Origin: Lysobacter capsici
GTDB lineage: Bacteria > Pseudomonadota > Gammaproteobacteria > Xanthomonadales > Xanthomonadaceae
Direction of reading: 5' to 3'
Length of the DNA stretch: 64,000 bases
Assembly (NCBI RefSeq): GCF_014779555.2
Contig: NZ_CP094357.1
Coordinates: 4,526,001-4,590,000, forward strand
Positions 24,413 through 46,965 of this stretch are shown here, one piece after another. Numbering within the stretch: position 1 is the first letter of the stretch; each line of letters starts with the position of its first letter. Below the pieces are notes generated by a model, which did not search any database, was not told the origin of the DNA, and saw only the letters and a list, made by a program, of their open reading frames with translations. The translations under genes and the position numbers were made by a program.

Positions 24413-24441
24413 CGCGGTCGCGGCTTGCGCCGCTCCTACAG
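24413..24441 (-). repeat. Single REP unit
   Basis: One copy of the dispersed unit, read on the minus strand as CTGTAGGAGCGGCGCAAGCC followed by GCGACCGCG. It lies just before the large palindrome. Confidence 0.85.
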
Positions 24442-24465
24442 GTAGGCCATGTCGCTTTTGCTTGG

Positions 24466-25060
24466 GCTTGAGGCAGCGCAGTTCATCCAGCGCTGCGAGG
24501 CTTGTAACTCGCGTTAGCAAAAGCACACCCGTAGGGTGGCGTGCAGGATGCACGCCGTGCGCCACCGGGACATGGATGTCCCGTGTGGCGCATGCCCGCG
24601 TCAGCCTCGATCTTGCGGGCCCTTGATTCACAAAAAAGCATTTTTCTTTGGTTACCTTTCTTTTGTTGCTTTAGACAAAAGAAAGTAACCCGCCGCTTCA
24701 GCGGCGGAACGCTTTTGATCCTGCTTGCAGCTTTAAAGGCTTCAAAGCTTTAAAGTCTTCAAAGTTTTGAAGCTCTAGAGCTTTTGAAGCCAGAGGCAAG
24801 ATCAACAGCTTTCGTCCGCAAGCGGCCGAGTTACTTTCTTTTGTCTAAAGCAACAAAAGAAAGGTAACCAAAGAAAAACGCTTTTCTTTGAATCAAGGGC
24901 CCGCAAGTGCGGTGCTTCCGCGGGCATGCGCCACACGAGACATCCTGTCTCGGTGGCGCACGGCGCACATCCATGTGCGCCGCCCTTCGGGTGTCCTGTT
25001 GTTCTCGCGAGTTCCGAGCTTCGCAGCGCTGGATGAGCTGCGCGGCTTCAGGCTCAAAAC
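24466..25060. repeat. Large near-palindromic element, copy 1
   Basis: About 595 bases, mostly self-complementary. The outer arms are CAGTTCATCCAGCGCTGCGA (from 24479) against TCGCAGCGCTGGATGAGCTG (from 25021). The middle arms are CTTGCGGGCCCTTGATTCA against TGAATCAAGGGCCCGCAAG. The inner arms are TTTCTTTGGTTACCTTTCTT against AAGAAAGGTAACCAAAGAAA. The roughly 110-base centre is rich in AAAGC/GCTTT and GAAGC runs. Two related copies lie at 31.5 and 46.3 kb. This copy lacks the 24-base insert seen in both. Most of the 24149-25247 gap is occupied by it; no gene is supported. Confidence 0.88.
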
Positions 25061-31535: not shown

Positions 31536-32095
31536 CCCGGCGCGGCTTGTAACTCGCGATGCAATAGCAGGCCCGAAGGGCGGCACGCATGGATGCGTGC
31601 CGTAGGCCACCCAGGACATGGATGTCCTGTGTGGCCTACCCCCGCGTAAGCACCGATCTTGCGGGCTCTTGATTCGAAACAGGAACGCCTTTTTCTTTGG
31701 TTACTTTTGACCGAAGGGAATCCAGGCGGACTTTTGTGGCTTTGGACAAAAGAAAGTTACCCGCCGCTTTAGCGGCGGAAGCTTTTGATCCTGCTTCCAG
31801 CTTTGAAAGCTCTAGAGCCTATGAAGCCAAAGGCAAGATCAACAGCTTTCGTCCGCAAGCGGCCGAGTTACTTTCTTTTGTCAAAAGCGACAAAAGAAAG
31901 GTAACCAAAGAAAAACGCTTTTCTGTGAATCAAGGGCCCGCGCGATCGGTGCTTACGCGGGCACGCGCCACACGGGACATCCTGTCCCGGTGGCGCGCGG
32001 CGCACATCCATGTGCGCCGCCCTTCGGGTGTGCTGTTGCTAACGCGAGTTACAGGCATCGCAGCGCTGGATGAACTGCGCGATGGCAAGCTCAAG
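31536..32095. repeat. Large near-palindromic element, copy 2 (with 24-base insert)
   Basis: It matches copy 3 at 46.3 kb base for base over its left and central parts (31536 to about 31922), then diverges modestly. It carries the 24-base module at 31708-31731 inside the left inner arm. The right inner arm (TTTTGTCAAAAGCGACAAAAG region) is uninterrupted and so shows the empty form. Apparent reading frames here arise from the repeat. The rest of the gap 31387-32154 contains no recognised gene. Confidence 0.9.
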
Positions 32096-46265: not shown

Positions 46266-46820
46266 CCCGGCGCGGCTTGTAACTCGCGATGCAATAGCAG
46301 GCCCGAAGGGCGGCACGCATGGATGCGTGCCGTAGGCCACCCAGGACATGGATGTCCTGTGTGGCCTACCCCCGCGTAAGCACCGATCTTGCGGGCTCTT
46401 GATTCGAAACAGGAACGCCTTTTTCTTTGGTTACTTTTGACCGAAGGGAATCCAGGCGGACTTTTGTGGCTTTGGACAAAAGAAAGTTACCCGCCGCTTT
46501 AGCGGCGGAAGCTTTTGATCCTGCTTCCAGCTTTGAAAGCTCTAGAGCCTATGAAGCCAAAGGCAAGATCAACAGCTTTCGTCCGCAAGCGGCCGAGTTA
46601 CTTTCTTTTGTCAAAAGCGACAAAAGAAAGGTAACCAAAGAAAAACGCTTTTTGGTGAATCAAGGGCCCGCAAGATCGTTGCAGACGCGGGCACGCGCCA
46701 CACGGGACATCCTGTCCCGGTGGCGCGCGGCGCACATCCTTGTGCGCCGCCCTTCGGGTGTGCTTTTGCTAACGCGAGTTACATGCCTCGCAGCGCTGGA
46801 TGAACTGCGCAACTTCAGGC
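46266..46820. repeat. Large near-palindromic element, copy 3 (with 24-base insert)
   Basis: It is identical to copy 2 from 46266 for about 390 bases, including the insert at 46438-46461. It then shows scattered differences up to the end near 46815, where a new arrangement of REP units begins. It is inserted downstream of a plus-strand operon. Reading frames spanning it are spurious. Confidence 0.9.
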
Positions 46821-46845
46821 TTAAGCCAAAGCCACATCGCCTACC

Positions 46846-46965
46846 TGTAGGAGCGACGCGAGTCGCGACCGCGGGAATGCAACTACGGCGCAGGTTGCGA
46901 AGTTGTCGCAATGCCGCGGTCGCGGCTTGTGACCGAAGGAAATCCAGTAGGACGTCGCTCCTACA
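46846..46965. repeat. REP inverted pair, right arm split by the 24-base module
   Basis: TGTAGGAGCGACGCGAGTCG (46846-46865) is mirrored by a REP unit ending GTCGCTCCTACA (46954-46965). The right unit is interrupted at 46930-46953 by the module TGACCGAAGGAAATCCAG...GGAC. The rest of the gap to 47119 is GC-rich without gene signs. Confidence 0.8.

Follow-up and report, generated by a model that had tools for sequence, protein, structure and literature searches.

The closest described system is the Rfam family TwoAYGGAY (RF01731), which has been proposed to bind CsrA (PMC4333381) and whose range was given in Weinberg 2010 as human gut, gamma-Proteobacteria and Clostridiales (PMC2864571). The primary CsrA/RsmA motif is described as A(N)GGA (PMC4066749), and binding of RsmA has been demonstrated for the Xanthomonas RNA RsmU (PMC7694677). 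Among extragenic DNA repeats, REPs are described as sequences of 20-40 bp with a GTAG or CGTC tag (PMC3733652).

The locus studied here is a stretch of 64,000 nucleotides from Lysobacter capsici (contig NZ_CP094357.1, 4,526,001 to 4,590,000; referred to below as the window). An earlier note on this DNA had placed three large palindromes at 24466-25060, 31536-32095 and 46266-46820, which our analysis confirmed, and had not recognised their family. The family could be recognised in part, as a portion of the element matches TwoAYGGAY while the other scanned units fell below its cut-off. The RF01731 cut-off (43) was passed by five distinct arms, at window positions 31580 (the same as L040) and 46310 and in loci L034, L036 and L037, one with 44.8 bits and four with 46.7, over model positions 49-107. 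It was not reached elsewhere in L001-L040, and sub-threshold scores of 31-33 bits were obtained in L001, L041 and L043.

Anatomy and copy number of the unit

Each palindrome is best explained as two head-to-head copies of a dispersed structured-RNA unit. Since relatives in other genera carry single arms, the building block was taken to be one arm of about 165 nt. On the GGA strand the unit runs in the order CCGAAGGGC, HP1, HP2, linker, HP3 (GGTTACTTTCTTTTG..CAAAAGAAAGTAACC) and HP4. HP1 and HP2 each carry A(N)GGA in the loop, with the GGA motifs 26-29 nt apart, and their loop consensus, from a unit set that requires GGA, is CA(N)GGA(N)G. Of the arms in the earlier note, TTTCTTTGGTTACC is HP3, CTTGATTC/GGGCCCGC is the linker and CAGCGCTGGATGA is the outer end; its description omits the pair of GGA hairpins that lies between linker and outer end. 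Its statements that arm order is identical in all three palindromes and that no coding sequence is kept in common both held, and a coding origin was rejected, as the three overlapping ORFs tested gave no Pfam match. The features of the window are as follows.

24413-24441, no strand: REP-type sequence flanking copy 1, with CTCCTACA towards the element
24466-25060, no strand: palindromic copy 1, an inverted unit pair with GGA ends outside and HP3 ends inside (sequence reading, BLAST, arm model)
24529-24691, plus strand: unit 1a, HP1-HP2-linker-HP3 (arm covariance model R1, contig 4550529-4550691)
24538-24556, plus strand: HP1 of unit 1a, loop GCAGGATGC, GGA at 24546-24548 (sequence and folding)
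24558-24592, plus strand: HP2 of unit 1a, loop CATGGATG, GGA at 24574-24576 (sequence and folding)
24639-24693, plus strand: HP3 of unit 1a, GGTTACCTTTCTTTTG..CAAAAGAAAGTAACC (HP3-only model R2, L001:1674-1728)
24690-24707, plus strand: HP4 of unit 1a, CCGCCGCTTCAGCGGCGG (direct reading of the sequence)
24828-24990, minus strand: unit 1b (arm model R1, contig 4550828-4550990)
31536-32095, no strand: palindromic copy 2
31573-31762, plus strand: unit 2a (arm model); its HP1-HP2, 31580-31636, matches RF01731 with 46.7 bits (cut-off 43)
31709-31731, plus strand: mini-insert GACCGAAGGGAATCCAG in the 5' arm of HP3 of unit 2a
31865-32027, minus strand: unit 2b (arm model R1)
46266-46820, no strand: palindromic copy 3
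46303-46492, plus strand: unit 3a (arm model); its HP1-HP2, 46310-46366, matches TwoAYGGAY with 46.7 bits
46439-46461, plus strand: the same mini-insert in HP3 of unit 3a
46595-46757, minus strand: unit 3b (arm model R1)
46845-46873, no strand: REP-type sequence flanking copy 3, variant CTGTAGGAGCGACGCGAGTCGCGACCGCG

The arms of copy 1 at 24574-24692 and 24827-24945 are 91% complementary, and its outer arms (24462-24541 and 24978-25057) 81%. Copies 2 and 3 agree at every position over 300 nt of their first halves, and the outer left CATCCAGCGCTG arm is missing from both, as it is from L034, L036 and L037. Further copies in the genome or its relatives, which the earlier note had proposed to look for, are present as about 121 half-elements here and as single arms in other genera. 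A BLAST search of the whole genome with copy 1 gave, far in excess of chance, at least 96 matches at E<=0.001 (best non-self E 1.4e-260), a count that covers both strands of each copy and 40 scored candidates of 82; the full-length copies listed are 82-93% identical to copy 1 in the better orientation. The covariance model of one arm identified at least 121 units in the 6.24 Mb genome (one contig), possibly a lower bound as 150 of 7350 candidates were scored. These form 53 pairs (106 units) with HP3 ends inside, one reverse pair, one tandem pair and 11 singles. The opposite pairing, with the GGA ends inside, is seen in L060. In some distant members (L203, L204, L206) an outer stem enclosing HP1 and HP2 was recognised by eye; it was not found in the Lysobacter-type unit.

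A mini-insert of 17-23 nt, GACCGAAGGRAATCCAG..GGAC, is nested in two unrelated hairpin families. Eight copies were found in 464 kb of genome, four of them in HP3 and four in a REP-type hairpin; in the window it occurs at 31709-31731, 46439-46461 and 46925-46960. A different nested insert (GATTCGCGCCATCCATGGCGC..) lies in the HP3 region of L135 and L157, from a Xanthomonadaceae MAG and Luteimonas panaciterrae.

Covariation, GGA loops and folding

In an alignment of 71 units, 99.1% of the stem cells were paired, versus 84.7% after shuffling, and pairing fell to 40-57% when the partners were slid as a control. Both sides had changed in 18 of 23 stem pairs, so that the compensatory base changes which the earlier note had named as a check are present. 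About fourteen HP2 stems were mis-registered in one stem alignment, and these stems were not used. HP3, with the outermost pair left aside, had 51 G-U cells on the GGA strand versus 4 A-C (cells, not independent events), as expected if the GGA strand acts as RNA. In HP1 and lower HP2 there were 4 G-U cells versus 0 A-C, and these stems are almost purely Watson-Crick, which, taken alone, DNA-level palindromes would fit equally well. The alternative here is a repeat that acts at the DNA level alone, like REP/BIME or MITE sequences, in which the hairpins would serve a transposase or chromosome structure, GGA would be a DNA recognition site and RsmA would be irrelevant. The Watson-Crick stems and the inverted pairing agree with such a repeat, the excess of G-U over A-C in HP3 argues against it, and on all the evidence given here and below we consider it distinctly unlikely.

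The first unit finder required GGA, which accounts for part of the GGA invariance in the first alignment and the 142-unit sets. A less biased analysis used units placed by the HP3-only model R2 in loci L001-L079, which had themselves been retrieved for their similarity to copy 1. In this genome every one of the 78 distinct units so placed (of about 121) had two A(N)GGA hairpins, and none had a control hairpin with the reverse-complement motif TCC(N)T. Among 55 units from other Xanthomonadaceae, 32 had two GGA hairpins, 16 had one and 7 none (stem of at least 5 bp), and the control motif was again absent (0/55). Inspected by eye, the 16 units with one hairpin also have GGA in the second, whose upper stem is shorter; of the remaining seven, three are devoid of GGA hairpins, two hold GGA within stems that are short or imperfect, another has one GGA, and the last is an HP3 duplicate. 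When units were sought with no GGA requirement, inspection by eye showed two genuine ones whose HP2 has no GGA (L123 and L195). The earlier note had offered two readings of the palindromes, of which the first, selection on folded DNA or RNA, is thus favoured by further copies, compensatory change, near-invariant GGA loops and the G-U excess in HP3.

The full-length RNA of copy 1 folds arm to arm with a minimum free energy of -455 kcal/mol, and those of copies 2 and 3 with -375 and -354. In these whole-element folds the GGA loops of the three copies are unpaired with a probability of 0.00-0.03, and they open only when the 5' half is folded alone. At equilibrium a full-length transcript would thus favour an arm-arm duplex that hides GGA, and local co-transcriptional folding, or ending or cutting in mid-element, must be assumed for the loops to be exposed. 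The strong full-length fold of copy 1 would suit a bidirectional 3'-end element of convergent genes, a terminator, mRNA stabiliser or RNase III substrate whose long double-stranded fold is itself functional. Such an element leaves the GGA loops unexplained, however, and no U-tract follows HP3/HP4 as judged by eye; we regard it as unlikely.

Genomic position and history of the copies

The elements lie at gene ends. Among the 39 copies with both neighbours called, 22 were between convergent and 17 between tandem genes, with none between divergent genes, versus 39 convergent, 248 tandem and 38 divergent among 325 background gene pairs; the neighbours come from a simple codon-usage gene caller, and one further copy had one neighbour only. 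All three palindromes of the window lie between convergent genes. Single units in other Xanthomonadaceae (n=50, some of which may be pairs whose partner the scan missed) were convergent in 30 cases, sense tandem in 5, antisense tandem in 14 and divergent in 1. The convergent copies, 22/39 to 24/41 with 0 divergent, are what a bidirectional 3'-end element would give. REPs sit at gene ends, and position likewise favours a DNA-level repeat, as do the neighbouring sequences. Of 80 element ends, 46 had a REP-type sequence with CTCCTACA pointing inward no more than 150 nt away, versus 1.3% of random stretches, and 18 of these 46 ends also had one that points outward; the REP pattern matches 551 sequences in the genome.

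Tandem hexamers (GCCGTT, GGCTTG and GCTTGC types) were also observed, within 110 nt of 16 of 80 ends versus 0.4% of random stretches, the loci concerned including L002, L008, L013, L025 and L035. A yybP-ykoY manganese riboswitch lies near one element copy (L024:909-1007, minus strand).

The second reading of the earlier note, a recently spreading non-autonomous transposable element, would account for a multi-copy, palindromic, intergenic repeat with the identity to copy 1 given above for the full-length copies listed (82-93%). It did not survive comparison with a sister species about 94% identical, in which all nine full-length copies with mappable flanks occupy the same sites, and we consider it very improbable. 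The stretches compared hold 13 element intervals here, three of them without flank in the sister stretch fetched; the tenth interval with flanks is a 94-nt solo end at 248730, of which the sister species may have a shorter version or none. With no empty full-length site among the nine, recent transposition was rejected: the elements are not jumping now, and this sharing of sites also speaks against a DNA-level repeat. Identity between the species was 90.0% for orthologous and 89.4% for non-orthologous copies, and 90.3% for paralogues within the genome, the orthologue being the best match for just two of nine copies. The copies have thus been homogenised in place, by concerted evolution at fixed sites, which further weakens recent spread.

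Spread on plasmids or phages was also rejected. The whole element had no match among 72,556 records of plasmids and 50,697 of phages, a further point against a DNA-level repeat, and other unit queries gave the HP3 stretch only. The HP3 stretch alone matches an Ilyobacter megaplasmid and, weakly, three Pasteurella records. In the record of the Ilyobacter polytropus megaplasmid (Fusobacteriota), which has 6-7 matching places, an HP3-like hairpin lies at L304:1500-1550, and no HP1 or HP2 was found on reading that site.

Two further observations concern assemblies. The sister genome has a tandem duplication of about 25 kb that includes its element copies (G003:C1, about 4588685-4627967). In Lysobacter antibioticus 13-6 several draft contigs end inside HP1/HP2 (L092, L095, L121, L122, L125, L127, L136 and others), and the element thus seems to break assemblies.

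Relation to csrA and to known systems

The unit is present across the Xanthomonadaceae and in many families of the class. Among the 80 matches listed, the named contigs with the HP1 pattern are nearly all from Lysobacter, Luteimonas, Pseudoxanthomonas and Xanthomonas. Under the stricter filters of the family and class scans, in which per-genome unit counts are lower bounds, the arm model matched 90 of 149 family genomes and 71 of 274 class genomes. This genome has one csrA, and csrA was found in 235 of the 274 class genomes. Over the class, presence of the unit was not associated with presence of csrA (63/71 vs 172/203, p=0.55), nor was it among genomes at least 90% complete (p=0.14).

One order, that around G268, which may be Burkholderiales, is poor in csrA, which was found in 2 of 200 genomes, in one of them above the cut-off. 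The arm model matched 59 of these 200 genomes, often in HP3 alone, with a best match of 51.8 bits (E 3.7e-9); 30 class genomes outside both Xanthomonadaceae and this order had a better E, and in four of these 30, all 73-87% complete, csrA was not found. Among the best matches per genome in the csrA-poor order, 3 of 30 units had a GGA hairpin (one of them two) with 3.0 expected by shuffling, and among the next full-length arm-model matches 1 of 20 with 2.1 expected, giving 4 of 50 with about 5 expected; the arm model favours GGA, so that both samples were selected towards it, and G580 was left out of the 20. In the csrA-poor order HP3 thus persists with GGA hairpins no more frequent than chance, a result that argues against a DNA-level repeat and that a bidirectional 3'-end element leaves unexplained. 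The genomes are not independent, and the loss of GGA there may be one single event. An Rfam scan of 20 loci of this order gave SRP and SAH matches only.

In csrA-bearing genomes, nine loci found with the arm model all had a GGA hairpin, eight of them two, these being top-scoring and hence chosen for GGA. HP3-only searches of csrA-bearing genomes outside Xanthomonadaceae gave 44 units from 34 genomes, hand-picked among the matches listed (25 of 30 loci plus 19 of 20 further ones; two were dropped as csrA was not found, one as csrA-poor, two for short upstream sequence and one as cut by a contig end). A GGA hairpin was present in 18 of the 44 (4.8 by shuffling) and a second domain, GUCGGCGAGGACUGUYUGAG..CGAGUUCCGCAGCCGCC-like, in 22 (0.5 expected), one unit having both and five neither. 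GGA is therefore dispensable for the rest of the element. The second domain occurs in csrA-bearing and csrA-poor lineages alike; in the csrA-poor order it was seen in 6 of 20 full-length units and, in a set of 29 chosen mainly as HP3-only matches, in 19 (the 29 being 28 from mostly HP3-only arm-model matches, 20 plus 8, and one from the HP3 model). As it is present in just part of the csrA-poor units, further domains exist, for instance in G460 and G588. Picking HP3-only matches selects against GGA, so the figure of 1/29 with GGA and its p=0.004 are biased and were not relied on. The idea that the GGA domain was swapped for another upon loss of csrA was weakened, since the HP3-only search found the other domain to be common in csrA-bearing genomes too.

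Three exceptions were seen: L298, from a 67% complete genome of the csrA-poor order, has two GGA hairpins; L254 (G284, 95% complete, 470 contigs) has GGA, with csrA not found; and G580 has csrA within the csrA-poor order, with the one unit examined (L276) lacking GGA. HP3-bearing units without GGA hairpins and without the second domain were observed in L275, L277 and L375-L381 (G460, G588); they may represent a third domain type.

Taken together, the conserved anatomy and the GGA loops suggest that the elements are probably gene-end RNA modules, putatively binding RsmA/CsrA in the cell. We infer that transcripts running past the ends of neighbouring genes would copy the element, and that its inverted arrangement would let a sense unit come first from either flanking gene. 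HP1 and HP2 would fold while emerging and together hold one RsmA/CsrA dimer. The roughly 120 units could then act together as a dispersed reservoir that binds RsmA, linking RsmA to the 3' ends of numerous mRNAs; a sponge effect on RsmA is a more tentative proposal. Against RsmA binding we counted the arm-arm duplex fold, the larger number of antisense (14) than sense (5) singles, the lack of association between unit and csrA, the GGA exceptions (L298, G284 and G580) and the fact that half of the units found by HP3 in csrA-bearing genomes carry the other domain.

It is conceivable, though open to considerable doubt, that the unit belongs to a class-wide modular dispersed RNA element. In such an element an HP3/HP4 chassis, often with an outer stem, would carry exchangeable domains: one with two A(N)GGA hairpins would clamp CsrA/RsmA and be kept where csrA exists, and the second domain would recruit a different partner. 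In Lysobacter this would amount to a network across the genome in which RsmA docks at some 120 gene-end sites. If this were true, a repeat common in bacteria would prove to be a set of RNA docking sites for a global post-transcriptional regulator, present by the hundred at gene ends, rather than DNA filler, and the view of how RsmA/CsrA availability is set in Xanthomonadaceae would change. It would also allow the function of a dispersed repeat to be tested concretely, by way of its partner, and the other widespread domain, which lineages almost devoid of csrA also carry, would point to another binding partner.

The limited set of papers searched contained none with the four HP3 strings and no account of the high copy number, the palindromic pairing, the HP3/HP4 chassis or the relation to csrA. 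Compared with described repeats, the element resembles REP, REPIN and BIME sequences in being extragenic, palindromic and often paired, and in having REP-type sequences at 46 of 80 ends. It differs in that its unit is about 165 nt long with three conserved hairpins, the flanking REP-type sequences being separate. MITEs and other transposable elements show presence/absence polymorphism, whereas all nine full-length copies with mappable flanks are shared with the sister species here. Like CsrB, RsmY, RsmZ and Xanthomonas RsmU, the element has several GGA hairpins and could in principle titrate RsmA, but those are single sRNA genes or mRNA-derived sRNAs, while these are many dispersed repeats. 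The dual hairpin is already known in TwoAYGGAY, with which the unit shares two adjacent hairpins with AYGGAY-like loops; a putative outer stem around both was seen by eye in some distant relatives. In contrast to that family, however, many loops here are the shorter CAGGATG rather than AYGGAY, the scanned units below the cut-off match its core only, and HP3 and HP4 follow the dual hairpin in units that are mostly arranged as inverted pairs and number about 120 per genome.
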